Positions 3,742-61,141 of a stretch of 64,000 nucleotides of DNA are shown in pieces; the first letter of the stretch is position 1, and every line of letters begins with the position of its first letter. The translations under genes were made by a program, and so were the position numbers. The notes under the pieces were generated by a model that worked only from the letters and a program-made list of their open reading frames with translations, was not told the origin of the DNA and ran no database searches. The stretch is from Pseudomonadota bacterium. Lineage in GTDB: Bacteria > Pseudomonadota > Gammaproteobacteria > Steroidobacterales > Steroidobacteraceae. Location of the stretch: positions 1 to 64,000 of the forward strand of contig JABBNZ010000014.1 of assembly GCA_019352035.1 (NCBI GenBank), given 5' to 3'.

Positions 3742-3744
3742 TCC

Positions 3745-9902: not shown

Positions 9903-9929
9903 GGCTTGCCCTCCAACCGAGAGGCTCCT

Positions 9930-16229: not shown

Positions 16230-16725
16230 ATGGTGAATGGAACGTTCTTGTACAGCGCTTCCGAAAGCGTACTGAGGCCTCGCGCTGCGAATCACGGGCC
16301 CAGCCGGTGACGCTTAGCATGATCGTGGGGTCGCGTTGCCGTCGGACAGGGCACACGTAGTCGCCGGACGCGCGGGGGGAACGATCATGTGACTCATTGG
16401 CTCAGGCCTCGAAGGCTCGAGCCGAGTGGCCGATATTGCAAACAGAATGGCTGAAGATGCGATCTACATTCGGCGGGGGGGGAAGCAAGCTGGGACGCCA
16501 TGGGATTCTGCTGGTCGATCATACGGCCACGAAGCAGAAATTGCCTGCCGGCTCGGATGCTAAGAATTTGGGGTGCTGGCGGATCGCCTAGCGATGATCG
16601 GCGCCCGGTCTACATGAGTCTCAACACGGGGTGGAACTGGTTGTGCAACACACGAAACTTACTTCAAGTCGCGTGATCGCTGGACGATCGGAATCTTACT
16701 CCCCAGTCGCGTCGGAGTCATAATC
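16230..16725. other. Promoter region of the first TonB receptor
   Basis: No gene was accepted in these 496 bp; a 64-codon frame at 16397-16591 has no recognisable features and overlaps a regulatory element. The region contains the tandem AraC-type element at 16427-16464, 261 bp before the receptor start. The segment 16465-16725 would then be a long leader or hold the core promoter. GGAG 9 bp before the receptor ATG is a good ribosome binding site. Confidence 0.5.
16427..16464 (+). promoter_or_regulatory. AraC-type tandem operator, site A
   Basis: Two direct repeats lie 21 bp apart: TGGCCGATATTGCAAAC (16427-16443) and TGGCTGAAGATGCGATC (16448-16464), with AGAA between. The arrangement equals three other sites in the window (27998, 32248 and 22757 on the minus strand). 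Two half-sites on the same face of the helix are typical for AraC/XylS activators. It faces the TonB receptor gene 261 bp downstream. Confidence 0.75.
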
Positions 16726-19245
16726 ATGCTGCGCAAGAGCCAAGTCTTATTCGCGGTGGCGGCGGCTCTCGGGGCTGTTGGCGGAAACGCCGCATTCGCT
16801 GCTGATTCCCCCGTAAATCCCGCCACTGGTGCCAGCGCGGTGAGTGCGCCGTCCGATCAGCTCGGCGAGGTCGTAGTCACGGCAACTAGGCGAAGCACCA
16901 CGGTTCAGAATACCCCCATCAGCATTCAAGCCTTCACCGGCGCTCAGATGTCGTCCCGCGGCATCACCGATGTGGACAGCCTGATCAGCTCCGTTCCGGA
17001 TATTGCCGTGCGTAACACCGGTGGTCCCGGGGAGGAGGAGTTCGAGATCCGCGGACTGAATTCTCAGGGCGGCAATTCATCGATGGTCGGCCTGTACTTT
17101 GGCGAGATACCGCTTTCCACCGCCATGGGCGCTCAGGTCGGCAAGAACTCCATGAACCCGGGTCTTTATGACCTGGAACGCGTGGAGGTGTTGAGCGGAC
17201 CGCAAGGGACACTCTACGGGTCGAGCTCCATGGGCGGAACGATACGGCTGATTCCCACTCCTCCGCAGCTTAACAAGTATGCGGCGAGCACGGAGGCGGT
17301 CATCTCGGCGACGACATCCGGCGGGGGAATCAACCACCAGGAAAACGGCATGGTGAATCTGCCGCTCGGCAGCAGGGCGGCCGTGCGCGTCGTAAGCTCC
17401 TTCACGGCCGACAGCGGCTGGGTCAAGCGCTTGGTGATTGCCGACGGCGCGGTTCCGGTCGACCCGGGCGCCTTCCCCAATGTCACTCGGCCGAGCGGCT
17501 TCTACTCGGCCCCTCTGCAGGAATCCTTGAGCGGCGTAAACACCGCCCGATTGGAATCGGTCCGTGCTGAGATCCTCTGGAAGCCGGTGGATAATCTCAC
17601 GATCAGACCCTTGGCCATGTACGAGGCCACCGTGCAAGGCGGGCCGCCCTCGGTGGACGTCAACGGAAGCCCGACGCACCCCCAGCTCCCGTCCGTCTGG
17701 GGTCACTATGAGATCTACGATTCGCCTGAGCCGCAAGAGGACCGCCTCAGCTTCGGCAGCTTGACCACGACTTATGATCTGCCTGCGTTCTCTCTCACCT
17801 CGGCGACGGGATTCTGGCACAGAAACTTCATCGATCTGCAGGATGACACGGAGCAGGTCGCGTCCGCGGTCGGCATTCCGGTTTACGATGCGGCTGCGGG
17901 TGGGCTAGGGTATCAGATGTCCGTGAAGGGGCCCGGCAACGCCGAGCAAGATTATTCCCGACAGCTTTCCGAGGAGTTTCGCATCACCTCGAGCGGTTCT
18001 GGCCCGCTTCACTACGTGGCCGGCTACTTCTATCAGGATCTGTACTCGGAGAGCAATATCTCGGCGTTTGCGCCGCAGGCCGCGCCGATCTTCGGGGGTA
18101 CGGCGGAATCCGTCAATTCCGTGCCCGAGGTCATGATCCAGAATGCGGTGTACGCGAACGTTTCGTGGCGGTTCTCATCCCATTGGGAGGTGTCGGCCGG
18201 AGCTCGGCGCTACCACTACAGCTTGAACGAGCCGTCTACTCAGTACGGCGCATTTACCGTTCTCGGCTCGCAAGGAACCAATGTTCCCTTCAAGAAAGAT
18301 ATCGCGATTGCGGCCAGCGGAACGGTACCGAGTTTCACCGCGACCTACAATATCGACGCCGATCACATGATATACGTGAGGGTCGGGAAGGGATTCCGTC
18401 TTGGCGGAGCGAGTGGTGATGTCGGTCCCCTGGCCGTGACTCCGGCGAGCAATACGAACCCCATATTCGCCGCGGAGGTCGCCAACGAATGCGGACTGCA
18501 GTACAAGATACTGCTTACAACGACGTGTAATCCAAACGTATTCATTCCGGCGCCTACGACATACGGTTCGGATTCGTTGTGGAGCTACGAGCTCGGCGAA
18601 AAATCTTCATTCTTCCAGCACCGGATGATCGCCAATCTGGACGCTTACCTGGAAGACTGGTACCACCCGCAGTTTGCCACGAATCTGGCCGGTTACGGCT
18701 TGAACGTCAACGGCGGCGACGCCCGCATCAAGGGGATCGATGGTCAGCTGGAGGCGCTGCTGCCAGCAGGCTTCGACGTGTCTTTGAACGCCAGCTACAT
18801 CGATGCGAAGTTCGTGCAAAGCAGCGCCATCACGGGATTTCCGTCCGGGATGAGCATCCCGGATACTCCAAGGTTCTCCGGGTCGCTGGTGCTCGGCTGG
18901 AATCACGATCTGTCGGACAGCGCCGCCCTGTTCGGATCGATTGAGGAGGACTACACGGGCGCCAGGACCGACCTGCCGTTTGGGGTGGCTGCCACGCTCC
19001 TCAACGTCAATCAGGTTCTCGTGCATCTGCCGGCCTACGCCCTCGGCAACATTCGCTTCGGGATAAAGGGAGAGCGAACTGACGGCAGTCGGTGGAGTGC
19101 GGCGATGTTTGTGAACAATTTTACAAACAACATCGTGCTCATCGACCCGCAGCCGCAGATATCCCTGCAGACGCAGGCGTTCGCTCGATATGTGATCAAT
19201 CAGCCTCTGACGGCGGGAATCGACGTAAGTTACTCGTTCCAGTGA
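16726..19245 (+). CDS. TonB-dependent outer-membrane receptor (paralogue 1)
   Basis: This 839-residue protein has a signal peptide (VLFAVAAALGAVGGNAAFA, cleavage after AFA) and a plug domain beginning LGEVVVTATRR and reaching VLSGPQGTLYGSSSMGGTIR. A 22-strand barrel follows, ending in an aromatic residue (VSYSFQ). It imports a substrate across the outer membrane with TonB energy. It is strongly similar along its whole length to the receptor at 32349-34931, sharing long near-identical blocks. Given the neighbours, the ligand is more likely a catabolic substrate than a siderophore. The upstream tandem element suggests AraC control. Confidence 0.93.
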   Translation: MLRKSQVLFAVAAALGAVGGNAAFAADSPVNPATGASAVSAPSDQLGEVVVTATRRSTTVQNTPISIQAFTGAQMSSRGITDVDSLISSVPDIAVRNTGGPGEEEFEIRGLNSQGGNSSMVGLYFGEIPLSTAMGAQVGKNSMNPGLYDLERVEVLSGPQGTLYGSSSMGGTIRLIPTPPQLNKYAASTEAVISATTSGGGINHQENGMVNLPLGSRAAVRVVSSFTADSGWVKRLVIADGAVPVDPGAFPNVTRPSGFYSAPLQESLSGVNTARLESVRAEILWKPVDNLTIRPLAMYEATVQGGPPSVDVNGSPTHPQLPSVWGHYEIYDSPEPQEDRLSFGSLTTTYDLPAFSLTSATGFWHRNFIDLQDDTEQVASAVGIPVYDAAAGGLGYQMSVKGPGNAEQDYSRQLSEEFRITSSGSGPLHYVAGYFYQDLYSESNISAFAPQAAPIFGGTAESVNSVPEVMIQNAVYANVSWRFSSHWEVSAGARRYHYSLNEPSTQYGAFTVLGSQGTNVPFKKDIAIAASGTVPSFTATYNIDADHMIYVRVGKGFRLGGASGDVGPLAVTPASNTNPIFAAEVANECGLQYKILLTTTCNPNVFIPAPTTYGSDSLWSYELGEKSSFFQHRMIANLDAYLEDWYHPQFATNLAGYGLNVNGGDARIKGIDGQLEALLPAGFDVSLNASYIDAKFVQSSAITGFPSGMSIPDTPRFSGSLVLGWNHDLSDSAALFGSIEEDYTGARTDLPFGVAATLLNVNQVLVHLPAYALGNIRFGIKGERTDGSRWSAAMFVNNFTNNIVLIDPQPQISLQTQAFARYVINQPLTAGIDVSYSFQ

Positions 19246-19285
19246 CGGGTGCACGCGCGATAGGCGGCGGGGCGAGGTGGTGTCG

Positions 19286-20059
19286 ATGCGAATCTGGTAC
19301 CAGAGCTTCGTAGACTACGAGAACGGCCGGACCTACTGGGACCGGCTCCGTGCGCATCTGGCGGCGATATCCGACCCCGGTACCGTGATCGATGTGCACG
19401 GCATAACGCCGCACGATTCTTATGCTCATAGCATCGTGGAATTTCGCTGTGCGCGTGAGGTGATCTGCAACGCGATCGCCGCGCAAGAAAATGGATACGA
19501 CGCGTTCATCATCGGGCACTTTCAGGACGCCGGTCTTTACGAGGCGCGTTCGGTTGTCGACATCCCGGTGCTCGCTTTGGGCGAGGCGTCAATGCTGTAC
19601 GGTTGCACCCTGGGGCAGCATCTCGGGGTAGTCACCATCAACCGACGCTACATTCCCTGGTTCGGACACCAGATCCGCAAATATGGGCTCGAGCACCGGG
19701 TGAATGGTGTGCATGCCATGACCTTTGAGCCTGGCCAGATTCTGCGGGCGTACGAGCGCGCCGACCTCGCCGAGGAGGTCGTGCGGCTGTTTGCCGAGCA
19801 GGCGGAGCCGCTGGTGGCGCAGGGAGTAGATGTTCTCCTGCCGGGAGGAGGCATTCCGATGCTCTTGTTCTCGTCCATTCGGGGTCACAACGTCGGCGGT
19901 GCGCCCGTGATCAATGGAATCCCGATTGTGGTCAAGCTCGCTGAGGCGGCCGTCAAGCTGCGCCGCCTTACGGGTCTCGGGGTAAGTCGTGCCTCGGATT
20001 ACGTCAAGCCGCCTCGCGAAATCATCGAGGAGTTTCGCTCGCATCCGAAGGGCCTTTGA
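19286..20059 (+). CDS. Asp/Glu/hydantoin racemase-fold protein lacking both catalytic cysteines
   Basis: This 257-residue protein starts at ATG 19286 (GGCGAGG 8 bp upstream); in-frame GTGs at 19277 and 19280 are alternatives. The start MRIWYQSFVDYENG and the middle VVDIPVLALGEASM fit the Asp/Glu racemase superfamily, near hydantoin racemases. In those enzymes catalysis uses two cysteines. Here the first position reads IIGHFQDAGL (His 78) and the second LLPGGGIP (Gly 188). Racemisation by the two-cysteine mechanism is therefore unlikely; a decarboxylase-, isomerase- or hydrolase-like role is possible. It follows the TonB receptor by 40 bp and probably shares its transcript. Confidence 0.78.
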   Translation: MRIWYQSFVDYENGRTYWDRLRAHLAAISDPGTVIDVHGITPHDSYAHSIVEFRCAREVICNAIAAQENGYDAFIIGHFQDAGLYEARSVVDIPVLALGEASMLYGCTLGQHLGVVTINRRYIPWFGHQIRKYGLEHRVNGVHAMTFEPGQILRAYERADLAEEVVRLFAEQAEPLVAQGVDVLLPGGGIPMLLFSSIRGHNVGGAPVINGIPIVVKLAEAAVKLRRLTGLGVSRASDYVKPPREIIEEFRSHPKGL

Positions 20060-20078
20060 CGGGGTCTTAGCAGGAGCG

Positions 20079-21146
20079 TCACTGCGACTTGATGAAGGCC
20101 AGTATGTCCTTGAGCTCCCGTGGGCGCAGGGGCTTGACGGCAGCTGCCATCTGCTTCCCCTCGGTGTCGGCAGCGTTGGATCCGCGGATGCCGGATCTGA
20201 AATGTGTCAACTGGGTCCACATGTAGACCTCATCCTGCTGGCGTAACGGTGGTGCGCCGAGCGAGGGATTACCCTCGGCATGGGCGCCGTGACATGCGGC
20301 GCAGTGTGTGGCGTACAGTCCGCGTCCGTGCTCGGGATTGCCCAGCGGAGAAGGGGGAGATTGGTGGAGGGGTAAGCTGGCTATATACGCTGCGACGTCA
20401 CGTAGGCCACGGTCACCCGGTAGCGCGCGTGCGCGCCCAATCATCATGAAGCCATAGGTGTCCGAGGCGTTTCCACGAATCCCGGCTCTGAACTTGCGCA
20501 GCTCTCTGAGAAGATACGCGCTGCCGAGGCCGGTCAGATTTGGAGCATGCATGGCAGGGCGGCCTTGAGCGCTGTCGCCGTGGCAGCCTGCGCATGTGGT
20601 GAAGAGAGCCTCCCCTCGTGCAACGCTCGCCGGCTTGAAGGCCGCGGCAATATCCGCATTATCGATATACTCTTCGAATCGCGTGATCTTGCCGTTCACT
20701 ACCGTGAAGATATGTACATTGTTCACATGGTAGTGCCCTCCCGTGCTGCGAACCACGCTGTCCTCCCAGCCGGGGACGATCACTCGATTGCCGGAGACGA
20801 TATACTCACGTTGGCCGGCGTGAACGTCCTTGAGATTCTGATCCACCAACTTGAAAAAGTAAGCCACACCGGAGCGGCCGTGAAATACGCCCGCGAAAGG
20901 CAGGAGGCGGCTCGGTCCGTATTGAATCCAGACGACGTTCTTGGCAACCAGGCTGACGACCGTTTTCAGATCGCCCCGATCGAAGGCGGCATACAGCGCT
21001 TTAACCACCGATATCGGACGCGGGGTCGATGGGCGGGGCGATCCGGCCGCCGCGCCACAGAGAGACAGCGCGACGAGGAGGGTGGCTGTCACGCGTCGGG
21101 CGGTGAGGCTGGCGCAGCGCAAAGGGGCGGTTCTAGAGGCGGTCAT
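20079..21146 (-). CDS. SnoaL domain fused to two c-type cytochrome domains, exported
   Basis: This 355-residue protein starts at ATG 21146, which overlaps the upstream stop by ATGA; a longer start at 21188 is less likely. A signal peptide spans about residues 17-36 (RRVTATLLVALSLCGAAAG). Residues 44-165 are a SnoaL/NTF2-like domain, and two haem c domains follow with C185AGCH189 and C282AACH286. It would be periplasmic and receive electrons from the translationally coupled Tat-exported flavoprotein. The SnoaL domain may bind the substrate or dock the flavoprotein. The fusion of an NTF2-like fold to a dihaem cytochrome is unusual. Confidence 0.88.
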   Translation of the reverse strand: MTASRTAPLRCASLTARRVTATLLVALSLCGAAAGSPRPSTPRPISVVKALYAAFDRGDLKTVVSLVAKNVVWIQYGPSRLLPFAGVFHGRSGVAYFFKLVDQNLKDVHAGQREYIVSGNRVIVPGWEDSVVRSTGGHYHVNNVHIFTVVNGKITRFEEYIDNADIAAAFKPASVARGEALFTTCAGCHGDSAQGRPAMHAPNLTGLGSAYLLRELRKFRAGIRGNASDTYGFMMIGRARALPGDRGLRDVAAYIASLPLHQSPPSPLGNPEHGRGLYATHCAACHGAHAEGNPSLGAPPLRQQDEVYMWTQLTHFRSGIRGSNAADTEGKQMAAAVKPLRPRELKDILAFIKSQ

Positions 21147-22654
21147 GTGATCCCGTAGAAATTCTGAAACACGCCATGGGGGTCCCATTTCTCACGCAGA
21201 GATTTCAGCCGCTGCCATGCCTCGGGGGAGTAACAGGTATTGATCTGATCAGGACGTCCTTCCTGGTCCATCTCGTTGATGTTGCTCCCGGTTCCGAGGG
21301 GAACGATTTCCTTGTAGAGATCGCGCAGGTAGCCCAGCATTACGGGATCCTCCGTGGGATTGTCCCAGATCACGTAATACGAAGCGTAAAAGTCCCCCAT
21401 GGTCGAGCAGGCTGCAGCCGGAAGCTTCGGGCTCCCCTTGTACAGGAACACGGCTTGCGCATCGACCGAGGGACAGCTCGTCATGCGGTCGCGGAGGATG
21501 GTTGCCACATCTCGCGCGCGGTTGGTAAAAACGTTGTCCGCAACCCAGCGCCTCTGCGAGAAGCCCAGTTCTTCATCGAAATAGAGGGCCTCGATGGTTG
21601 TCGTGCTGCCGAGTTCCTTGCCGATGGCCCGTTTCATGATGGGGTGCTCTGTGAGGACCCTGAGTTTCCGCGCAGAGTCGGCCACATTGGTAGTGTACGC
21701 GTTCGCATCGACGCTGACGGCGCGCCGGCAATCCGCATTCGCGCAATGCGCAGTGAGTTCCGCGGGTGCCGGGCCGACGTACCCCAGAAGCTCCACATCG
21801 GAGTCCATCTTTGGTCCGATTTCTGCCAACGCCCCGATAACGTCGGGAAGATCCTGGAAGCCAAACGTGATCGTGTTGTGTACTATCGCACGGGGGAGCT
21901 CGTAGGTCTTCAGGAATAGCTTGGTGACGACACCATAGAGTCCCGGGCCGCCGCCGCGAAGCGACCAGAAGAGGTCAGGATTCTCGGTGGCACTCGCATG
22001 GCGGATGCGACCGTCGGCGGTGACTACTTGCGCCGCAAGAATGTTGAAGGTGCTCATCAGGCCCCAGGCATTGCCATTCAGCCCGAGCCCGCCGCCGAGC
22101 AGAAACCCGCCCAAGGGAACCATCCCACAATGCGCCGTGGGGAATGCCAGACCGAACTGCCTCAGGCGTGCATTGACCTCGCGCGCAATGGCGCCGGGAC
22201 CGGCGTTGAATAGAGGCGCCCGTGTATCGATTTCAATGCTGTTCAGTCGACTCACGTCGATCAGCATGCCGCCGTCGCGCAGAAAGCATGCGCTCGCGCT
22301 GTGGCCGCCGCATCGTGTGGTGACGCGCAGGCGGTGCTTTCGGGCATACATCACAGCCTCGGCGACGTCCTCTGCCGAGTCGACCTGAACGATGAGACCC
22401 GGATAGCGAGGCGACTTGCGCCGCTGCCAGATCATGCTCTCCCGCCAGAGCTCGTAATTGGGTGCGCCGCGATCGACTGAGGCTCTAAGATGCTCGAGTT
22501 CCATCGGGGAGCGGTGCTGTGGAGTGGCGCAAGCACCACCAGAGGCGGGCTTGCCGGCGGCGAGGACCCCCGTGCTGAAGGCAGCCGCGCCGATGCCACC
22601 AATGAATTTGCGACGGTGCATGCGAGCCATTCCCTTCGATGTAGGATGCTTCAC
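21143..22654 (-). CDS. Tat-exported FAD-linked oxidoreductase (PCMH/berberine-bridge type)
   Basis: This 503-residue protein has a twin-arginine signal MHRRKFIGGIGAAAF (R14, R15). The PCMH-type FAD domain shows GGHSASACF (H118, the usual histidyl-FAD position) and, at C176, AHCGMVPLGGFLLGGGLG, where bicovalent family members carry the cysteinyl-FAD. The C-terminal BBE motif is WDPHGVFQNF. It likely dehydrogenates an amine, alcohol or alkaloid in the periplasm. Electrons would go to the overlapping cytochrome fusion rather than oxygen. A tandem AraC-type operator lies 65 bp upstream (site D). Confidence 0.88.
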   Translation of the reverse strand: MKHPTSKGMARMHRRKFIGGIGAAAFSTGVLAAGKPASGGACATPQHRSPMELEHLRASVDRGAPNYELWRESMIWQRRKSPRYPGLIVQVDSAEDVAEAVMYARKHRLRVTTRCGGHSASACFLRDGGMLIDVSRLNSIEIDTRAPLFNAGPGAIAREVNARLRQFGLAFPTAHCGMVPLGGFLLGGGLGLNGNAWGLMSTFNILAAQVVTADGRIRHASATENPDLFWSLRGGGPGLYGVVTKLFLKTYELPRAIVHNTITFGFQDLPDVIGALAEIGPKMDSDVELLGYVGPAPAELTAHCANADCRRAVSVDANAYTTNVADSARKLRVLTEHPIMKRAIGKELGSTTTIEALYFDEELGFSQRRWVADNVFTNRARDVATILRDRMTSCPSVDAQAVFLYKGSPKLPAAACSTMGDFYASYYVIWDNPTEDPVMLGYLRDLYKEIVPLGTGSNINEMDQEGRPDQINTCYSPEAWQRLKSLREKWDPHGVFQNFYGIT

Positions 22655-22719
22655 GGTGCTCTAGGGTGAAGATTCGAGCCTTCTTGATTCCGATGGTAGC
22701 TCCGGCTGAGTCGCTACAT

Positions 22720-22757
22720 AATTGCAAATACAGCCAATTACTTGGCAATAGGGGCCA
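22720..22757 (-). promoter_or_regulatory. AraC-type tandem operator, site D
   Basis: Read on the minus strand: TGGCCCCTATTGCCAAG (22757-22741), TAAT, then TGGCTGTATTTGCAATT (22736-22720). The 21-bp period and orientation towards the downstream gene match sites A, B and C. It ends 65 bp before the flavoprotein start. It also lies 150 bp upstream of the divergent esterase gene and could serve both. Confidence 0.65.
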
Positions 22758-22907
22758 TTCGGGTTCTCCGGCCGATTCGGCAAAGAACCTGGCCTTCACT
22801 GCTATCGCGCCCCGTGCCGACCGCCCCGATACTCAGCCCGATCCATGTATCACATTGCGTGATTTCTGGCGAAGTACAACGCCGGGAGTACCTGGAGGGG
22901 TAACACC

Positions 22908-24446
22908 GTGAACCCGAAAATCGATATTCAGATCGCAGAGACTCCGTCCGGCCGACTGCTCGGAGAGAAGGTCCGCGGTGTGATGGTCTTCCGGGGCGTA
23001 CGTTATGCACTCCCGCCGGTTGGAACGAGGAGATTCCGCGCGCCGGTACCGCCTCCCTCGTGGCATGGAACTCGCGAGGCTCTTGAGTTCGCACCGGTTC
23101 CCCACCAGCTCCGTATCTCCAAGGGGCTATTGATTCCGGAATCTGCGATCGAGCTGAACGCGCGGGAGGATGAGGATTGCCTGCATTTGAATGTGTATAC
23201 ACCGGGCCTGACCGGCCGCCGGCCGGTTCTCGTGTACATACACGGGGGTAATTTCGTCGAAGGCGCAGGTTCGCAGTCCTGGACGGAGCCTGCGGCGTTG
23301 GTTCGACGCGGCGACGTTGTGGTGGTGACTGTGAACTACCGGCTGGGCCCCCTGGGCTGGCTGTTTCTGGAGGACGTCGGCGCACACGAGACGGCGTCGG
23401 CCGACAGCAATCTGGGACTCCTCGATCAGATCGCCGCATTGAGGTGGATTACAGATAACATCGCCTCATTCGGCGGCGATCCGCATAACGTCACGCTGTT
23501 TGGATATTCGGCCGGTGCCTGGAGCATCTCTGCCTTGCTGGCCTGCCACCGAGAAGTGCGTCTGTTTCACAAAGCGATCGTCATGAGCGGTGGTGTGCGC
23601 TGTCACTCGCGCAGAGAGGCCACGGCGTTGGCCACTCAGATCCTCCGCGAATTGGGCCTCCGCCCAGGGCCAGCTGAAACCACCAAATTATGGGATCTGC
23701 CGGCGGAAGCCTTTTCCGAAGCGTTGGAACGAGTATGGAATCGGAACGGTCATCCATTTCCTCCTATCCGGCCGGTAGCGGGGGCTGGGCCGATCCCCGC
23801 CGATCCGCTTGCAGCGATCAGGGGCGGAGCGGCTGCGCACGTGCCTCTCATCGTCGGCAGCACTCTCGAGGAGTTCAAACTCGTAGCGACCGTGGATCCC
23901 GATGCGGCACGCCTCGATCCAGCAGGATTGGTCGCCCGGCTCGCCGAGGATCTGGGGGAGCAGGGCGCGCGTAGGATCATCGATGCATACCGTGAAGGGC
24001 GGCAGGTCAGGGGAGAGCCGATCACGCCGACGGATCTCTACTGGGCGATTCGCTCCGACCACGTATTCAGTGTGCCCGGGATAAGAGTTGCCGAGGCTCA
24101 GTTCGGAGCTGGATCTCCGGTGTACATGTATCAGGTATGCTGGGCCGGCGGGGATCCTCGTCTGGGTGCGTGCCATGCCGTCGATCTCGCCCTCATTTTC
24201 GGCACGCTGGAACTCGAAGGAATGCACGTCCTATCGGGCGCCGGCCCCCAAGCGCAGATGCTTTCGCATCGTATCCAGGACGCCTGGGCGGCATTTGCGC
24301 GGACCGGCAATCCTGGGCATGCTGGACTGCCGCCCTGGCCGAAATACGACCTTCGGCATCGTGCGACCATGATTCTCGATCACTCGTGCCGCGTTTTGGA
24401 GGGACCGTCGGCCCAGGAACGCGCTTCCTGGTCCGGGATTCTCTGA
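22908..24446 (+). CDS. Type B carboxylesterase
   Basis: This 512-residue alpha/beta hydrolase has the nucleophile S201 in FGYSAGAW, the oxyanion hole YIHGGNFVEGA and the family signature EDCLHLNVYTPG. The catalytic His is probably in GACHAVDLALIFG. There is no clear signal peptide, so it is probably cytoplasmic. Relatives hydrolyse bulky carboxylic esters, carbamates and aryl esters (para-nitrobenzyl esterase, cocaine-esterase-like activities). It is divergent from the flavoprotein operon and convergent with the APC permease. In this context it could release an acid and an amino alcohol from an imported ester. Confidence 0.9.
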   Translation: MNPKIDIQIAETPSGRLLGEKVRGVMVFRGVRYALPPVGTRRFRAPVPPPSWHGTREALEFAPVPHQLRISKGLLIPESAIELNAREDEDCLHLNVYTPGLTGRRPVLVYIHGGNFVEGAGSQSWTEPAALVRRGDVVVVTVNYRLGPLGWLFLEDVGAHETASADSNLGLLDQIAALRWITDNIASFGGDPHNVTLFGYSAGAWSISALLACHREVRLFHKAIVMSGGVRCHSRREATALATQILRELGLRPGPAETTKLWDLPAEAFSEALERVWNRNGHPFPPIRPVAGAGPIPADPLAAIRGGAAAHVPLIVGSTLEEFKLVATVDPDAARLDPAGLVARLAEDLGEQGARRIIDAYREGRQVRGEPITPTDLYWAIRSDHVFSVPGIRVAEAQFGAGSPVYMYQVCWAGGDPRLGACHAVDLALIFGTLELEGMHVLSGAGPQAQMLSHRIQDAWAAFARTGNPGHAGLPPWPKYDLRHRATMILDHSCRVLEGPSAQERASWSGIL

Positions 24447-24454
24447 AGGGGCTG

Positions 24455-24473
24455 CGAGCTTTGCCGTAGCTCG
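24455..24473. terminator. Stem-loop between convergent genes
   Basis: CGAGCT-TTGCCGT-AGCTCG is a perfect 6-bp stem with a 7-nt loop, starting 9 bp after the esterase stop, in the gap shared with the convergent permease gene. There is no T run, so its role as a bidirectional terminator is only suggested by position. Confidence 0.3.
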
Positions 24474-24575
24474 TCGAGCTAAACGGCGGGATGGTGGTGG
24501 GCAGTGAGTCCGAGAGCGGGTGTTGTCCTGAGCTCCCGAAAGAGCAGTTTGACGCTCATCATAGCCGCACTGCCG

Positions 24576-26078
24576 TCAGCCGACCGCCGAGGTCCGCGGC
24601 TGTCCCGTCGAGTCCCTCGTATCTGTCGGCTCCCCCGGTGCTTCCTCCACCCGATTCTGACCAATCTGCAGGTATACCGCAGGCCGAAAGCGCCGCAGCC
24701 ATTCCGCCTGTGCGAGTCCGGCGGCCGCGATGACCAAAAGAAGATACGGGAGATGGTTGATTACAGTCGAGCTGACGCCCGTCACCAGGGAATAGTTGGT
24801 GAACGCGAGATACACGGCTCCGGCGATGATCAGTCCGCCGAGGAAAGGCGCGAGCGTATTGCTCAAGGTGGGCGAGTGCCGGCGCAGGAAGAAGACCGGT
24901 ATCCCAAGAGAAGTCACCGCCATCAACGTCATGAGACCGACGGAACCGAGCCCTACGAGCGCCGTAGTCACGTTGACCAGAGGGTCTAGTCCCAACACTT
25001 GAGCGGCGGCCACGACCGCTACGAGTCCCACGGTCAGTACCGCGCCAGCGACATGGGGAGACTTGTGTCGGCGGTGGGTCGAAGCGAGCACCGCGGGGAT
25101 GACCCCGTCCCTTGCTAACGCGTAGAGATACCTGGCCGAATTGTTAAACAGTGCGAGCACGGCTGCCAATGAGCTGGTGAGGACCAGCACGCTGACCCCG
25201 AGAGCGCCCCAGGCACCGAGATAGGTGCTGGCGCGATCTACGACGAAATTTCCGGGATTGCCCTTGGCAATGCCTGAGACGGCGCCAGCGGGCACGGACG
25301 AGCTCAGGCACCAGGCTGTGAACACGTAGAACAGGCCCACCAGAATGATCGAGATGTAGGTGGCTCGGGGTACCGTCACGCGACGGTTGCGGGTCTCCTC
25401 CTGATAAATGGCCGTCCCTTCGATGCCGATGATGCTGTCGAACGCGTAAATTGCGCCGATCCCGAGGCCTGGCGCGTAGACCAATTTAGGGGAGAAATTC
25501 GACAGGTGCATCCCGCTTGGTCCCACGTGAGCGACGATCGCGAAATCCAGGACCAGGATCAGCAAGACTTCGGCGCCCAATGCCAGTGCGAGAGCCTTCG
25601 CGGCCAACGTGATCCGGTGATACGCCAGAAATGCGATGAGGATGATGCTGAGGTACGCCCAGAGGTACCACGGGGCATGCAGTCCCATCGTAGTTCGGAC
25701 AAACTGCTCGCAGAAGAATGCGAAGGCGGAGAGTGTCGATGCCGATAATGCGAAGTAACACACCGCCGCGACGTACGCGGCCGCCAAGCCGGCAGTCCGG
25801 CCAATGCTGGCGCCGATATAGGCATAGAAGGCCCCGGCATTCGAGACATACGGGATGATGCGCACGTAGCCGACCGCGAACAGGAGCATGGCCGCTATGG
25901 CGTTCAGATACGTTCCGGGCATTCCTTCCCCGTTCCCGAAGGCGAAGGCCAGCGGCATGAGGGCCACGACCACCGACATGGGGGCGGCGGCCGCCATGAC
26001 CATGAACACAACGTCCGCAGTGCCGAGCACGCCGCGGCTGAGTCGTCCCTGATCTGCCTCACTCTGGGGAGATCTCAC
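24576..26078 (-). CDS. APC-family amino acid/amine permease
   Basis: This protein of about 500 residues has some twelve transmembrane segments. The first block GVLGTADVVFMVMAAAAPMSVV and the following GEGMPGTYLNAIAA are typical of the APC superfamily, and the segment YAFDSIIGIEGTAIYQEET matches its conserved FDS-x6-E motif. GTG 26078 is preferred (GAGG 12 bp upstream); an in-frame TTG at 26090 directly abuts that GAGG. The permease probably imports an amino acid or amine used by the neighbouring aminotransferase and CoA ligase genes. Confidence 0.9.
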   Translation of the reverse strand: MRSPQSEADQGRLSRGVLGTADVVFMVMAAAAPMSVVVALMPLAFAFGNGEGMPGTYLNAIAAMLLFAVGYVRIIPYVSNAGAFYAYIGASIGRTAGLAAAYVAAVCYFALSASTLSAFAFFCEQFVRTTMGLHAPWYLWAYLSIILIAFLAYHRITLAAKALALALGAEVLLILVLDFAIVAHVGPSGMHLSNFSPKLVYAPGLGIGAIYAFDSIIGIEGTAIYQEETRNRRVTVPRATYISIILVGLFYVFTAWCLSSSVPAGAVSGIAKGNPGNFVVDRASTYLGAWGALGVSVLVLTSSLAAVLALFNNSARYLYALARDGVIPAVLASTHRRHKSPHVAGAVLTVGLVAVVAAAQVLGLDPLVNVTTALVGLGSVGLMTLMAVTSLGIPVFFLRRHSPTLSNTLAPFLGGLIIAGAVYLAFTNYSLVTGVSSTVINHLPYLLLVIAAAGLAQAEWLRRFRPAVYLQIGQNRVEEAPGEPTDTRDSTGQPRTSAVG

Positions 26079-26305
26079 AGCGAATACCAACCTCGATTAG
26101 TGACGACCATGCTGCTTGGTACGATTCCGCGCCTGGCGACCGATGGCCGGCACAGCCAACGGGCCGTGCGTATTGCGTACCGAGTTCGTTGCGTATACCG
26201 TGTCCCACAAGATAGTTCAAGTATAAAGTAATTGGTGATGCGGGAGCCCATGCTTCTGAGCACGTGCGATAAGCGCTTTCCAGCGAGCCCGATCTTGAAT
26301 CTCCT

Positions 26306-27958
26306 ATGAACAGCATTTTTGGTTCATCCGAGGATTATGTGGTTGGGTCCATCCATGCCGCCTTCGAGCGCACGCGGCGACAATACGCGACGAGCCCGTT
26401 CCTGCACCTGCCCGCCGGGCTCTCCGGCGGCCCCTTGAGCCTCACCTATCAGCAGGCGGCATTGAAGGTGGAGCAGCTTGCGGATGTCTATCGCCGTGCG
26501 GGCTATGGCCCCGGTCATCACATCGCTCTGCTTCTCGAATCGCGCGCTGAGTTCTACCTGCACTGGCTTGCTGTAAACGCCATTGGCGCCACATTGCTGC
26601 CCATCGCGGCAGAGTTGGTCGACGACGAAATGGCATGGCTACTGAAGCATGGTGAAGCCGACCTCGTCGTTTGCCTGCCGAGGCATCTCGCTGCGGTGCG
26701 GCGCGCCTCGCAGCAAGGCTCTGCTGCGCAAATCGCGTGCGCGGAATCGGAGCAGTCGACATTGCCTCCTGCGCGCGAGCCCCGCTCGGGCGGTGCGGCA
26801 GGCGGTGCCGCAGCCATCGTCTTCACCTCCGGGAGCACGGGTGCGCCGAAGGGCTGCCTGCTCTCGAACGCCTATTTTCTCGCATTCGGCGGCTGGTACC
26901 GGGATTTGGGCGGACGATGCCACCTGCGCCCCGGGCACGAGCGGATCATCACGCCACTGCCCCCAAATCACGTGAACGCCCTGGCGTTCTCCAGCATGGG
27001 GGCGATCATGACCGGCGGCTGCATCATACAGATCGACCGGTTCCGGCCAGCCCAATGGTGGGCGCTGGCGAAGGAGACTGGCGCCACGGTGATGCACTAC
27101 CTGGGCGTGATGCCTGGCATGCTGCTGAAGCTCCCGGAGGAACAGCTCGAGCGGCAGCACTCGTTGCGCTTTGGGATTGGCGGTGGCGTTCGCGCGGCCG
27201 ATCATGAGCGGTTCGAAAAGCGCTTCGGCGTACCGCTCATCGAGGCCTGGGCCATGACCGAGACCGGAGGCACGGGAACCCTCGCGACCCAGTCGGGCCC
27301 GCGACACGTGGGAACCGGCTGCATCGGTCGGCCATCCCCGAGGTATTCGGAGGCCAGGGTCGTCGACGAGCGGAATCAACCCGTGCAGCCAGGCGAAACG
27401 GGGGAGTTGGTGGTCCGTGCGACCGGTCCCGATCCAAGGCGGGGCTTCTTTTCGGGCTATTACCGCAATCCGGAGGCGACCGAGGCTGCCTGGCGTGGCG
27501 ACTGGCTCCATTCGGGCGACCTGGTGCGGCAAGACGAGGAGGGATGTTTCTTTTTCGTCGGGCGCCGCAAGCAAATCATCCGCCGCAGCGGCGAGAACAT
27601 CTCCGCCGCCGAAGTCGAATCCGTACTGGCTTCCTGCAGGAAAGTGCTCCAGGCAGCCGTGGTGCCCGTACCGGATGAGGTCCGCGAAGAGGAGGTGTTC
27701 GCATGCCTCGTGCCGGATGAGGGGCTCGCGCCGACTCAGGAGAGCGCGGAAGGTCTTCTGCAGCAGATGGCAGCGCATCTATCCTACTTCAAGCTCCCCG
27801 GTTACATTGCTTTCGTCCGCGAGTTGCCAACGACCGCCACCCAGAAGTTGCGCTACGGTGCGATCATCGAGCTGGCCCGCTCCATGCTCGCAGTTGGCGA
27901 GTCGGGCGTTTTCGATCTCAGAAAGGCCAAGAGCGCCTATCGGACGCGAAGCGCCTAG
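26306..27958 (+). CDS. AMP-forming acyl-CoA synthetase (paralogue of the 4241 gene)
   Basis: This 550-residue protein has the same length as the ligase at 4241-5893 and collinear motifs: FTSGSTGAPKGCLLSN, EAWAMTETGG, LHSGDLVRQDEEG, RRKQIIRRSGENIS and a C-terminal lysine in TTATQKLRYG. The conserved RERLITPLPLSHMNA/HERIITPLPPNHVNA block shows recent common descent. It activates an acid to the CoA ester. It precedes the aminotransferase-ALDH pair, so it may activate the acid produced by them. No AraC-type element was found directly upstream. Confidence 0.9.
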   Translation: MNSIFGSSEDYVVGSIHAAFERTRRQYATSPFLHLPAGLSGGPLSLTYQQAALKVEQLADVYRRAGYGPGHHIALLLESRAEFYLHWLAVNAIGATLLPIAAELVDDEMAWLLKHGEADLVVCLPRHLAAVRRASQQGSAAQIACAESEQSTLPPAREPRSGGAAGGAAAIVFTSGSTGAPKGCLLSNAYFLAFGGWYRDLGGRCHLRPGHERIITPLPPNHVNALAFSSMGAIMTGGCIIQIDRFRPAQWWALAKETGATVMHYLGVMPGMLLKLPEEQLERQHSLRFGIGGGVRAADHERFEKRFGVPLIEAWAMTETGGTGTLATQSGPRHVGTGCIGRPSPRYSEARVVDERNQPVQPGETGELVVRATGPDPRRGFFSGYYRNPEATEAAWRGDWLHSGDLVRQDEEGCFFFVGRRKQIIRRSGENISAAEVESVLASCRKVLQAAVVPVPDEVREEEVFACLVPDEGLAPTQESAEGLLQQMAAHLSYFKLPGYIAFVRELPTTATQKLRYGAIIELARSMLAVGESGVFDLRKAKSAYRTRSA

Positions 27959-27997
27959 GCTTCATCCAGGCCGACAGTGATCGCGCCGCCCGGCACG

Positions 27998-28035
27998 TGG
28001 CCGATAGGATCAAGCATTTGGCCGAATTTGCAATC
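27998..28035 (+). promoter_or_regulatory. AraC-type tandem operator, site C
   Basis: TGGCCGATAGGATCAAG (27998-28014) and TGGCCGAATTTGCAATC (28019-28035) are direct repeats with a 21-bp period. The first half is weaker, the second close to consensus. The site lies in the 219-bp gap after the CoA ligase, 142 bp before the aminotransferase start, and points towards it. Confidence 0.7.
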
Positions 28036-28177
28036 CACAATCCTGGGGCGCGGTGACAACATTCGCGCAGACCTCGGGCCTGGCACCGGGGCTCGGCGAC
28101 CGAGGCTCCCTTGCCGGCCCGAGCGGTGTCGCGGACAGGTCACAACAATCAGCGTGAGCCGCTCTGGAGAACGACGG

Positions 28178-29593
28178 ATGTCAGCCGTAAATTGGGATCA
28201 GATCCGCGAATGGGACGAGAAATACGTCTTCCACGTGCTTGCCACCAAGGACGAGTACCATTCGCTGCCCGTCGAGAGCGCGGAGGGCTGCTATGTAACG
28301 CTGGCGGACGGGCGCCGAATCTTCGATTTCGCGAACCAGCTCGTTTGCGTGAACATGGGGCATCGCCACCCCCGCATCCAAAAGGCCATTCGCGAAGCGC
28401 TCGACAAGTTCGGCTATGTCTGGGAAGGCATGACGACCGAGTATCGCTCGCGGGCCGCGAAGCTGATCATGGAGGACATGGGAGTGGGGAGCTGGGCGGG
28501 TCGAATCCGCTTCCTCGCCACGGGCACCGAGGCTGTGGAGACCATGGTCCTCATGGCGAAGCTGTTCACCGGGCGACGCAATATCGTCACGCGCAGCTAC
28601 GACTATCATGGTTGGACGAACGCTCTCTCCGGCGCCAATGGCGTTCGCGGGTACCGCTCCAGTCTCGCCTCAGGCGGTGGGAGGCCCAGCATCCGTGACG
28701 TACCTGATGCCCCTTCGCCCAACTATCATTACGCGCCAGCGCCACAATGTTACCGCTGCCCGATCGGGCACACCTATCCCAACTGCAAGGACAAGTCGGG
28801 GACCCTGGCCTGCGTGAAAGCGACCGAGCACCTGATTCAGGTGATCGGAATCGAGACCGTCGCCGGCTTTCTCACCGAGCCTGCCCAGGGAGCGGGCATG
28901 ATTCACCCCCCGAAGGAATATTTCCCGCAGATTCGCGAGATGACCCGACGGCTCGGGATCCTATGGCTCGACGACGAGGTGATGACCGGATTCGGCCGCC
29001 TCGGTGAGTGGTTCGGGTACGAAGTCTATGACGTCACGCCCGACATCATGTCGGTTGCAAAGGGGCTCGTGTCCTCTGCCGTTCCTGCCTCGGGTGTGGT
29101 GCTGTCGAAGGAAGTCGCGGCATTTTTTGATCACTGGCGGTTCTCCACCATGAGCACCTTCGGTTCTCACCCGCTCGCGATGGCCGCGGTCGCCGCCAAT
29201 CTGCAGGCGATGCTTGAGGAGAACATCCTCGAGCGGGTGCGCAAGCTCGGTGCCCATCTCGGCACCCGCCTGCAGGAGCTCGAGGCACGGCATCCTTCGG
29301 TCGGGCTCGTGTCGGGGCGTGGTCTCATGTGGGCCGTGGAGCTCGTGAAGAACAAGCAGACGCGAGAGCCGTTCGTCACCGTCGATCGATATTCGATCTA
29401 CGCCAAGACCGAGGCCGTGCCCGCGAGTCAGGTCGTGGGTCGGATCGCTTTCGAGGAGGGCGTCGCCGTCGGTGCATTCCTGCCGAACAGCATTCGTCTG
29501 GCTACCGCGTTCATCGCCACCGAGGCGGATATCGATTTCGGCATTCGCGCCATGGACAAGGGACTCACGGAACTCGACAAGCAGTGTGAGTGA
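28178..29593 (+). CDS. Class III aminotransferase (omega-transaminase type)
   Basis: This 471-residue protein starts at ATG 28178, supported by TGGAG 8-12 bp upstream and the start of family similarity (WDEKYVFHVLATKDEY); longer in-frame starts run into site C. The PLP features are the ATGTEAVETMV phosphate-binding stretch, the Asp in LWLDDEVMTGFG and the Schiff-base lysine in SVAKGLVSSAVPASG. It likely moves the amino group of an amine or omega-amino acid to pyruvate or oxoglutarate, giving an aldehyde that the next gene can oxidise. A cysteine-rich insert (CYRCPIGHTYPNC) is seen around residues 190-205, unusual for the family core. Confidence 0.88.
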   Translation: MSAVNWDQIREWDEKYVFHVLATKDEYHSLPVESAEGCYVTLADGRRIFDFANQLVCVNMGHRHPRIQKAIREALDKFGYVWEGMTTEYRSRAAKLIMEDMGVGSWAGRIRFLATGTEAVETMVLMAKLFTGRRNIVTRSYDYHGWTNALSGANGVRGYRSSLASGGGRPSIRDVPDAPSPNYHYAPAPQCYRCPIGHTYPNCKDKSGTLACVKATEHLIQVIGIETVAGFLTEPAQGAGMIHPPKEYFPQIREMTRRLGILWLDDEVMTGFGRLGEWFGYEVYDVTPDIMSVAKGLVSSAVPASGVVLSKEVAAFFDHWRFSTMSTFGSHPLAMAAVAANLQAMLEENILERVRKLGAHLGTRLQELEARHPSVGLVSGRGLMWAVELVKNKQTREPFVTVDRYSIYAKTEAVPASQVVGRIAFEEGVAVGAFLPNSIRLATAFIATEADIDFGIRAMDKGLTELDKQCE

Positions 29594-29626
29594 GCGCCTC
29601 AGATCCATCCGACCGGAGAAGCCCCG

Positions 29627-31147
29627 ATGAGCTCCCTCGCCAATGATTTATCACTCCTGAGTGAGTCCAGCCGACGCTATTTCGGCGCGCCTCATCGACA
29701 CTTCATCGGCGGACAGTTCGTCGATTCGATCTCTCAAGAGGAAATTCCGGTCATTGATCCCACCAGCGGGGAACTCGTGGCGAGGGTCCCAGCAGGAGGA
29801 GCCGGCGATATCGACCGCGCCGTAAGGGCGGCCCGGAAGGCGTTCGATACGGGACCCTGGACCCGAATGACGGGTCCGCAGCGCGAGCGAATCATGTTGC
29901 GCCTCGCCGATCTCCTCGAGGCGAACGCGACGGAGATGTCGGAAATCGAGAGCGTCAATAGCGGGCGGACCCTGTTGTCGACAAAGGCGTTCGACGTCGA
30001 CCTCTCCGTGGACTATCTCCGGTATATGGCCGGCTGGGCGACCAAGATCCACGGCCAGACACTGAATCCATCCGTCCCTTACGTGCCTGGCGGAAAATTC
30101 TTCGCCATGACTGTCCGGGAGCCGGTGGGGGTCGTGGGTGCTATCACGCCATGGAACGTACCGCTCGGTCAGGCCATCTGGAAGATAGCGCCGGCGCTGG
30201 CTGCAGGATGCACAATTGTCCTGAAACCGGCCGAGCAGACGCCTTTGACAGCGTTGCGATTCGCGCAATTGGTTGCGGAGGCGGGTGTTCCTGAGGGCGT
30301 TGTCAACGTTGTCACAGGATATGGAGAATCAGCGGGAGCGGCGCTCGTGGCGCACCCCGGGGTCGACAAGATCAGCTTCACCGGCTCGACACAGGTAGGC
30401 CGGCTGATTGGCGAGGCGGCAGCGCGCCAAATGAAGAGAGTCACCCTCGAGTTAGGTGGTAAATCTCCCATGGTGGTGATGGGAGATGCCGATCTCGACG
30501 TCGCGATTCCCGGCGCGGCGATGGGCATCTTTGCCAATCATGGACAGAACTGTTGCGCGGGCTCTCGGCTGTTCGTTCACAGCAGCATTTACGAGCGGGT
30601 GATCGATGGAATCGCGCGGATCGCGCGCACCTTGAAGCTGGGTCCCGCGTTGTCGCCGGACACCCAGATGGGGCCGCTGATCTCGAAAGCGCAGCAGGAG
30701 CGTGTGATCGGGTACATCCGCTCCGGCGTGACTGATGGCGCGAAGGTGATCGTCGGCGGCAAGGCGCTCCCGGGACCGGGCGCTTACGTGGAACCCACAA
30801 TCCTGACAGAAGTGGGCCCCGCGATGAAGTGCGTTCGCGAGGAAATCTTCGGTCCCGTGCTCGCCGCTACTCGATTCGACGAGGTGGGCGAGGTGATCTC
30901 GCGCGCGAACGATACAACGTTCGGGCTGGGAGCCAGCGTCTGGACCGAGAGCCTGAATACCGCTCACTGGTTCGTCCGACAATTCAAATCCGGAACGGTC
31001 TGGATCAATACCCATGGCGTGCTCGATCTGGCGGTCCCCTTTGGTGGCATCAAACAGTCCGGCATGGGTCACGAGCTCGGCGAAGAAGCGGTCAACCACC
31101 ATACAAATCTGAAATCTGTTCTTGCATCCTTGAAAGACCCGAGCTGA
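29627..31147 (+). CDS. NAD(P)-dependent aldehyde dehydrogenase (betaine-aldehyde-DH type)
   Basis: This 506-residue protein has ITPWNVPLGQ (oxyanion Asn), LELGGKSPMVV (base Glu) and the nucleophile in NHGQNCCAGSRLFV. It starts at ATG 29627 with GGAG 12 bp upstream, 33 bp after the aminotransferase. The pair forms a transaminase-dehydrogenase module converting an amine to a carboxylate. It ends 13 bp before the convergent AraC gene. It is only distantly similar to the ALDH at 11261. Confidence 0.92.
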   Translation: MSSLANDLSLLSESSRRYFGAPHRHFIGGQFVDSISQEEIPVIDPTSGELVARVPAGGAGDIDRAVRAARKAFDTGPWTRMTGPQRERIMLRLADLLEANATEMSEIESVNSGRTLLSTKAFDVDLSVDYLRYMAGWATKIHGQTLNPSVPYVPGGKFFAMTVREPVGVVGAITPWNVPLGQAIWKIAPALAAGCTIVLKPAEQTPLTALRFAQLVAEAGVPEGVVNVVTGYGESAGAALVAHPGVDKISFTGSTQVGRLIGEAAARQMKRVTLELGGKSPMVVMGDADLDVAIPGAAMGIFANHGQNCCAGSRLFVHSSIYERVIDGIARIARTLKLGPALSPDTQMGPLISKAQQERVIGYIRSGVTDGAKVIVGGKALPGPGAYVEPTILTEVGPAMKCVREEIFGPVLAATRFDEVGEVISRANDTTFGLGASVWTESLNTAHWFVRQFKSGTVWINTHGVLDLAVPFGGIKQSGMGHELGEEAVNHHTNLKSVLASLKDPS

Positions 31148-31160
31148 TTCCGCTGATTCG

Positions 31161-32243
31161 TTAGCGACCTTTCCGTCGTCGCTGTGTGAGCGTCTTCCCT
31201 GTCCAGCTCTTGAATGCGCGTGACAGGACAGACGGATCGGAGTAGTTCAGTCGGAAGGCGAGCGCCGCCAGGGGTCTCGGGCCGGAGGTCATAATACCTT
31301 CCAGCTTGGCAAGCCGTTGGCCTTGCAGGATGGAACGGAACGATGTGTCTTCGGCAGCCAGCCTTCGGCGGAGTGTTCGGACAGAGAGATTGAGATCCTT
31401 CGCGATGGCCTCGATCGTCACCGGTGTGCGGCCAAGGCGCCGCGCGACCTGAATTGCGGCACTCTCGGCGCACGAGCGGTTGGGCGCGCTTTCCTCGTGA
31501 AGCAGATTGAGCAGGTGCCGCTCGAGCACCGGTATGGTGGTCGCATCCAGCGGTCCCATGCGCCAGGGGAGCGGCTGTCGCAGGTCGTGATTCGCGATCA
31601 CGATGGCGTTGGAGACGCCCCCCCCGGTGACGCGTGCACCAAAATAGCGCGATAGGCGATTCCGGCGCACGCTGACGTCGTGCTCGAATTCCACCTCGAC
31701 GGGTCTCCAACGTGGATCGAGCAATTGGCGCACCATGGCCCCCATGGAGGCGATCGCATACTCCGCATCCTGCGTGCGAGGCCAGATGCTCGGGTCCTGG
31801 ATACAGTACCGATAGATGGTCGTCGTCGATCCGGGTACGATCTCCAGGCTCGTATGGGTCTGCCAGGCCCACTGAAAGCGCGCGAATCGCTCGAGCGCCG
31901 CGCCGAGGTCGGGAGCGAGAGCGAACAGCGCATAAAAGGGGCCAAAGTCCGCCAGTCGGAACTGTTGTCCGAGCTCGAGCCCGAGGTAAGGCCGCTCGAG
32001 ACGTTGAGCCAGGTCCTCGGTGAGCGCGATGTACTGGCGCAGCGGGACGTGCTCGTAAAGCGTCGCGGTGAGGGAGGCGGAAAAGCCGAACTCGCGTAGG
32101 TATTCCTCGACGTCCAGTTTCGACCGCTCGATCTCCTGCACGAAAGGCGCGAGGAACATCGCACGAACGGTGGCCGGATCCGCATCGAATCCGGTGCCTT
32201 GCCGCAACGCGGGGGATGGTCTGCTCTTGGGGCGACGTTTCAT
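31161..32243 (-). CDS. AraC-family regulator with arabinose-binding-like N-terminal domain
   Basis: This protein of about 360 residues starts at ATG 32243; an in-frame ATG at 32330 would place operator site B inside the gene, and 32159 is a shorter option. The N-terminal domain resembles the AraC N-terminal type found in OruR-like regulators (LREFGFSASLTATLYEHVPL). The C-terminal double helix-turn-helix reads VTIEAIAKDLNLSVRTLRRR and LNYSDPSVLSRAFKSWTGKT. It is divergent from the second TonB receptor with site B between them, and is the best candidate for the protein that binds sites A-D, including its own promoter. Confidence 0.87.
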   Translation of the reverse strand: MKRRPKSRPSPALRQGTGFDADPATVRAMFLAPFVQEIERSKLDVEEYLREFGFSASLTATLYEHVPLRQYIALTEDLAQRLERPYLGLELGQQFRLADFGPFYALFALAPDLGAALERFARFQWAWQTHTSLEIVPGSTTTIYRYCIQDPSIWPRTQDAEYAIASMGAMVRQLLDPRWRPVEVEFEHDVSVRRNRLSRYFGARVTGGGVSNAIVIANHDLRQPLPWRMGPLDATTIPVLERHLLNLLHEESAPNRSCAESAAIQVARRLGRTPVTIEAIAKDLNLSVRTLRRRLAAEDTSFRSILQGQRLAKLEGIMTSGPRPLAALAFRLNYSDPSVLSRAFKSWTGKTLTQRRRKGR

Positions 32244-32247
32244 GGGC

Positions 32248-32285
32248 TGGCTGATTTTGCACACAAAATGGCCGAACTCGCAATC
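32248..32285 (+). promoter_or_regulatory. AraC-type tandem operator, site B
   Basis: TGGCTGATTTTGCACAC (32248-32264), AAAA, TGGCCGAACTCGCAATC (32269-32285). It has a 21-bp period and faces the TonB receptor, ending 63 bp before its start. It also abuts the start of the divergent AraC gene, so it could mediate activation of the receptor and autorepression together. Confidence 0.75.
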
Positions 32286-32348
32286 TACGTCGGGCACCGC
32301 TCGGGGCAATCTACCTACGGTCGAAAACAAAGCCTATGCCGGGGGTTT

Positions 32349-36542: not shown

Positions 36543-36549
36543 CGAAGGT

Positions 36550-37092: not shown

Positions 37093-37101
37093 CCGAATTC
37101 C

Positions 37102-61085: not shown

Positions 61086-61141
61086 CGAAACTCACAACGA
61101 TGATCCGCCTCCGCTTGAGGCACTTATCCCCGGGGGGAACC

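Follow-up and report, generated by a model that had tools for sequence, protein, structure and literature searches.

Tandem direct repeats at four promoters form a predicted AraC-type operator set in a Steroidobacteraceae bacterium

Do four similar intergenic repeats, spread over 16 kb of a bacterial contig, mark the targets of a single regulator, and if so, of which one? This question is raised by contig JABBNZ010000014.1 of a Pseudomonadota bacterium (Steroidobacteraceae, assembly GCA_019352035.1), of which we analyzed positions 1-64,000 (hereafter, the window). The four elements, designated sites A, B, C and D, each point at the downstream gene named in Table 1. Aligned on their first base, all four are direct repeats of TGGCYGAWNNTGCNA with a period of exactly 21 bp, and TGGC is identical in all eight half-sites. 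Listed from the distal to the proximal half, they read TGGCCGATATTGCAAACAGAA-TGGCTGAAGATGCGATCTACA in site A, TGGCTGATTTTGCACACAAAA-TGGCCGAACTCGCAATCTACG in site B, TGGCCGATAGGATCAAGCATT-TGGCCGAATTTGCAATCCACA in site C and, on the minus strand, TGGCCCCTATTGCCAAGTAAT-TGGCTGTATTTGCAATTATGT in site D. An initial annotation of this DNA had placed the four elements at the coordinates and strands confirmed here, with the same period and each facing the gene it named. It had described them as a 17-bp repeat; the repeat is real, but its unit is better written as above, with 16 columns used.

The same annotation had allowed that such pairs might be as common in unrelated coding sequence as before catabolic genes. 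We scanned the genome of 4,499,376 bases with a 38-mer IUPAC pattern, permitting no more than three mismatches, and obtained four matches, which are exactly sites A-D, and none for the reversed control. As the pattern was derived from these very sites, the informative part of the scan is the absence of further matches. The position matrix proposed in the initial annotation, built from the half-sites with all four sites in training, gave pair scores of 42.8, 41.7, 40.2 and 38.3, the next position in the window scoring 15.1. When each site was left out of the matrix in turn, it still ranked fourth among 127,928 window positions, right behind the three training sites, at 28.2-34.9 bits; the next position, always 22769+, reached 14.5-17.4 bits. 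The two halves contributed unequally to these scores. The distal half was better in sites A (24.0 versus 10.9) and B (18.6 versus 15.5), the proximal half was better in site D (19.2 versus 12.7), and in site C a poor distal half (3.7 bits) accompanied a proximal half of 24.4 bits.

The sites were also recovered in a sister species of the same genus (genome G003), where the 38-mer had one match and its reversed pattern none. On one G003 contig (C54, 47.6 kb), which was kept out of training, the best two of 95,102 positions under the A-D matrix were 43050- (42.0) and 38705- (35.9), followed by a score of 11.6. The former, named C3, lies before the aminotransferase orthologue (91% over 471 amino acids), and the latter, named B3, lies between the AraC orthologue and a TonB receptor. 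The comparison of upstream regions suggested in the initial annotation finds the sites kept at both matching genes, in G003 only and for two of the four sites. The sites are better preserved between the two genomes than their flanks: with gap columns excluded, B and B3 are alike in 33 of 38 site columns and 34 of 67 flank columns, and C and C3 in 29 of 38 and 99 of 181, respectively. G003 retains the B and C units, with an amino-acid permease and an AMP ligase adjoining, and its contig carries one TonB receptor of this kind versus two in the window; no match to the flavoprotein, the cytochrome or the esterase was present on that contig at 1e-10. Judged from these two genomes, promoters A and D may either have joined the regulon in the lineage of the window or dropped out of it in that of G003.

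Some of this likeness might reflect shared ancestry, if A had been copied from B along with a duplicated TonB receptor, and if B and B3 were conserved as part of the AraC frame running through them. Receptors 1 and 2 are paralogous, both best matching the single G003 receptor (66.5 and 73.9%, respectively). Outside the site A and B are alike in 32 of 67 columns, much like B and B3, which makes a common origin of the flanks possible, and in both genomes no stop codon interrupts the AraC frame upstream across site B (31161-32330 in the window; open frames of 390 and 416 amino acids). We nevertheless consider this explanation very improbable. Within the site, A and B are alike in 29 of 38 columns; C and D precede unrelated genes, the flavoprotein behind D having no relative at E<=1e-40 in 59 other genomes searched; and the distance from the site to the AraC start differs between the genomes (4 bases in the window versus 25 in G003), though by a multiple of three.

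The arrangement of the six sites (A-D and the two from G003) relative to promoter elements bears on how they might act. With columns numbered from the start of each site, all six sites agree at just three of columns 39-109, namely G at 55, A at 60 and T at 64. This A and T correspond to positions 2 and 6 in a -10-like hexamer, xAxxxT, which occupies columns 59-64 in all six sites (CAAGCT, CAATCT, CAACAT, TACCAT, CAACCT and GAGGAT) at a 17-bp spacer from a -35-like hexamer at columns 36-41 (TCTACA, TCTACG, TCCACA, TTATGT, TCTATG and TATGCG, all starting with T). Elsewhere in downstream columns 38-104 there is no invariant A...T pair, and when 200,000 quartets were sampled at random from the DNA upstream of 21 window genes, including the site-bearing ones, 3 had xAxxxT conserved in all members at a spacer anywhere from 15 to 19 bp. 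Given the -10-like element at this fixed spacer, the tandem reaches from about -71 to -35, a position that, as in XylS and CphR, points to activation. The location of the proximal half at -35 would explain the conserved AT and mostly C that follow the proximal and not the distal half. Two features of XylS-type class II activator promoters were found here, namely a pair of direct half-sites at a distance of about 21 bp, of which the proximal lies at -35, and a -10 element at normal spacing in six of six sites, with the hexamers otherwise weak. Repression of these promoters by the same regulator is quite improbable: site B, at the AraC start, could block AraC transcription, whereas each of the six tandems runs up to a poor -35, which is the layout of activator-dependent promoters.

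XylS binds two direct repeats at Pm of the TOL plasmid, the second overlapping the -35 by two bases (PMC4225500), and the repeats of Rhodococcus CphR span -69 to -35 (PMC6205950). Both resemble A-D in having two direct repeats for an AraC/XylS dimer, at or overlapping the -35, and differ in the half-site, TGCA-N6-GGNTA as against TGGCYGAWNNTGCNA, and in that four promoters share the site here. ArgR of Pseudomonas, another AraC/XylS protein, is described as binding 16-bp boxes, TGTCGCN6GNAA, that stand in tandem and are separated by 5 bp (PMC10963909). It shares with A-D the 21-bp period and a related TGnC...AA form, and differs in controlling an arginine regulon, in other half-site letters and in a variable spacing in P. 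alloputida.

The regulator of A-D is most likely the AraC-family protein encoded next to site B, as the initial annotation had supposed; it is kept with the sites in G003, and the sites occupy an activator position before the -10-like element. This protein passes the Pfam cut-offs with 109.7 bits (cut-off 27.6) for Arabinose_bd and 47.8 bits (33.6) for the AraC helix-turn-helix domain; XylS has an N-terminal domain of another family. Its best NCBIfam match is QhpR (NF049968), with 209.5 bits over residues 67-351, which is below the cut-off of 250 bits, and so we treat it as QhpR-like and do not file it as QhpR; that cut-off was passed by no protein in 369 genomes of the class. QhpR is tied to quinohemoprotein amine dehydrogenase and regulates the operon of that enzyme. 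An aminotransferase and an aldehyde dehydrogenase adjoin the QhpR-like gene here, but Pfam named no qhp genes among the 39 window open reading frames scanned, a set covering not every small frame. By eye, no clear ribosome-binding site was seen before the gene.

In comparison with its G003 orthologue, which adjoins the G003 sites, 292 of 353 residues are identical and the helix-turn-helix region is nearly the same. An orthologue search in 40 genomes (its own included) returned only one other, from G003, at 82%. Of 396 genomes of the order, five had a match at 1e-30, these being the window's own, G003 and three others at 30-34%, and a scan of contigs confirmed 19 loci, one at 83% (the G003 contig) and 18 at no more than 44%.

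The window encodes a second AraC-family protein, AndR-like in sequence, and either this or an AraC protein encoded elsewhere could bind the sites instead. The 21-bp tandem layout is common to several AraC/XylS proteins, and 5.5 kb separate site A from the end of the AndR-like gene. However, its seven matches in G003 are only 25-32% identical (the best, with E 1.7e-10 and 26%, is on contig C59) and it has no counterpart on the site-bearing contig (best E 0.18), whereas G003 keeps the sites beside the orthologue of the QhpR-like gene. Hence, within this one species pair, the sites go with the PF12625 protein. A Rieske dioxygenase pair (2419-4236) lies in the neighbourhood of the AndR-like gene, and the genes around it are preceded by none of the five top-scoring window positions. 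Binding by this or a more distant AraC protein is in our view improbable. The choice of the adjacent gene in the initial annotation thus stands, though it mentioned neither the second AraC gene, which needed to be excluded, nor the weak site at 22769+.

Judging from sequence, one AraC-family activator, most likely the QhpR-like protein, very probably uses A-D as its operators and would thereby turn on this uptake and oxidation gene set jointly. In the course of events that we infer, from the identity of the binding protein to its inducer, a dimer would bind two direct half-sites 21 bp, or two helical turns, apart, with the proximal half abutting the poor -35. Contact with RNA polymerase would compensate for that -35, and transcription would begin from the -10 at 17-bp spacing, some 71 bp beyond the site's first base, which predicts starts near 16498 (A), 32319 (B), 28069 (C) and 22686 (D). 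The inducer-bound regulator would in this way activate TonB receptors 1 and 2, the aminotransferase-aldehyde dehydrogenase pair and the flavoprotein-cytochrome c genes together, the inducer perhaps being an amine or its aldehyde, as the QhpR-like sequence and the presence of aminotransferase and aldehyde dehydrogenase genes may hint. Site B also extends over the DNA immediately preceding the putative AraC start codon, so that binding there may limit the regulator's own expression.

Several observations weigh against this interpretation. The -35 and -10 hexamers are poor, and the predicted leader of the site A promoter, at about 228 nucleotides, is long. For C and C3 the site is only modestly better preserved than its flanks (76 versus 55%). 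A close AraC orthologue occurs in only the window's genome and G003 among the 396 genomes of the order, so that the comparative evidence amounts to one species pair. Across 99 genomes (its own included), 16 had a match to the 38-mer, which hit 14 single places in 97 other genomes, versus two for the reversed control. Nine of these 14 fall in one coding sequence (hand-translated AKNxIL[L/F]VDFAI) and hence are hardly operators; the 38-mer pattern by itself does not amount to proof. Finally, a loose half-site pattern, with three mismatches on 16 specified bases, is common, matching the window's genome 198 times versus 200 for its reversed control (223 versus 235 and 114 versus 127 in two further genomes). 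These counts equal those of the control; specificity is therefore confined to the strong form of the site, and the loose pattern is useless for weak sites. Such abundance could suggest a chance resemblance picked by eye, the likelihood of which we consider close to nil: the genome scan with the 38-mer, the leave-one-out ranking, the untrained G003 test and the -10 spacing all oppose it.

Table 1. Predicted regulatory sites and associated genes (window coordinates unless a locus is named)
Feature	Position	Strand	Remarks
Site A, predicted tandem operator	16427..16463	+	upstream of TonB receptor 1
Site B, predicted tandem operator	32248..32284	+	between putative AraC start codon (32243) and TonB receptor 2; kept in G003
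Site C, predicted tandem operator	27998..28034	+	upstream of aminotransferase-aldehyde dehydrogenase; distal half degenerate; kept in G003
Site D, predicted tandem operator	22721..22757	-	upstream of flavoprotein and SnoaL-cytochrome c genes
Candidate site E, weak tandem	22769..22805	+	back to back with D, facing carboxylesterase 22908; pair score 15.1
-10-like hexamer of A, CAAGCT	16486..16491	+	17-bp spacer from -35-like TCTACA at 16463-16468
-10-like hexamer of B, CAATCT	32307..32312	+	aligned columns
-10-like hexamer of C, CAACAT	28057..28062	+	aligned columns
-10-like hexamer of D, TACCAT	22693..22698	-	aligned columns
AraC-family regulator	31161..32243	-	PF12625 Arabinose_bd and PF12833 HTH_18; QhpR-like; G003 orthologue 82-83%
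Second AraC-family gene	9906-10958		PF14525; AndR-like, 125 bits (cut-off 350)
TonB-dependent receptor 1	16726..19245	+	PF07715, PF00593; site A
Asp/Glu/hydantoin racemase-family protein	19277..20059	+	possibly co-transcribed with receptor 1, from spacing
SnoaL-like domain and two cytochrome c stretches	20079..21188	-	Pfam; site D
FAD_binding_4 oxidoreductase, Tat-like signal	21143..22654	-	Pfam; signal by eye; site D
Carboxylesterase	22908..24446	+	PF00135; downstream of candidate E
Class III aminotransferase	28178..29593	+	start set by G003 orthologue; site C
Aldehyde dehydrogenase	29627..31147	+	best NCBIfam match StyD, 642.7 bits (cut-off 850)
TonB-dependent receptor 2	32349..34931	+	site B
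L054 tandem sites	144 and 4281	-	second about 100 bp before open reading frame 3394-4146- without Pfam match
L054 AraC	9275-10360		PF12625/HTH_18 (Pfam)

The gene assignments of the initial annotation agree with Pfam, the twin-arginine translocation (Tat) signal of the flavoprotein being judged by eye; by the same means, the start of this gene is more likely at 22630 or 22621 than at 22654. The aminotransferase, the aldehyde dehydrogenase and the QhpR-like regulator suggest an amine or amino-acid-like substrate. The window also encodes a protein resembling the methylamine dehydrogenase heavy chain (37102-38277, PF06433; 194 versus 454 bits for the tryptophan tryptophylquinone methylamine dehydrogenase equivalog) and a thioredoxin-like protein (35931-36653) with Pfam scores below cut-off; the window matrix scan found no strong tandem site before these two genes (35931-38277). 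A third TonB-dependent receptor (61082-63538) is likewise without a strong tandem site. Proteins of the 2-oxoacid oxidoreductase type at 47845-51542 (a thiamine pyrophosphate enzyme and POR/DUF6537 proteins) are 73-86% conserved on the G003 contig.

A fifth, weaker element, candidate site E, could drive the esterase. It lies 12 bp away from D's outer end, has GATACT at 22828-22833 with the same spacing as the -10-like element of A-D, which would put its transcription start at 22840, and came fifth among window positions whichever matrix was used (10.5 being the next score below its 15.1). Its whole-site score over 65 columns is -5.5, which ranks tenth, and among the matches listed, ten other places in the genome equal its two mismatches in the loose pattern. 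We left it uncounted among the sites.

We also looked for similar operators near other PF12625 regulators. Of 56 loci with AraC relatives, 51 were used, the omitted ones being the window's own (L128), the G003 orthologue (L010), L014 and L129 (short upstream DNA) and L011 (N). The commonest best spacing was 21 bp (9 of 51 loci, all nine pointing away from the gene), followed by 24 bp (7 loci), and the best tandem was oriented away rather than on the same strand in 37 of 51. In a held-out set of 40 relatives, just 19 showed the away orientation and self-similarity had no peak at 21 bp; strong sites facing away (score of at least 9) numbered six at 21 bp versus zero to three at other spacings, and same-strand ones up to four. 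With this set not confirming the trend, a family-wide operator is a lead and not a result. The case appears strong in single loci only, L054 (strong), L137, L022 and L154. In L054, from a Rhodospirillales moss genome and one of 24 loci scanned, two sites scored 31.1 and 21.0, followed by 7.9, and the maximum of 200 single-strand shuffles was 15.7. Beside the start of the second AraC gene of G003 (L022, 34% identical), a diverged tandem at 2564+ scored 16.0, or 19.9 with a softer matrix; as L013 scored 16.8, scores near 16 alone prove nothing. We regard it as doubtful, though conceivable, that a branch of PF12625 AraC proteins has long used TGnC-n2-A-n2-TTGnCAA at 21 bp, directed outward from the regulator gene, as its operator code, and that this code has here spread to five promoters with D and E back to back. 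If so, regulons of that branch would be readable directly from genomes.

A literature search of limited extent found no operator for a QhpR-like or PF12625 regulator, and the portion of the P. aeruginosa binding atlas used here (PMC8041468) offered no motif for comparison. As far as these searches go, the regulon is new, and its mechanism is ordinary: the sites appear to be a real, well-supported AraC-type operator set in a standard activator layout. The analysis yields a predicted regulon that comprises four promoters, or perhaps five, together with a promoter model of 65 bp and a named candidate regulator, and it proposes an operator for a QhpR-like, PF12625-type protein. If this assignment is true, the receptors, aminotransferase, aldehyde dehydrogenase and flavoprotein would belong to one physiological response, which would narrow the search for the substrate.

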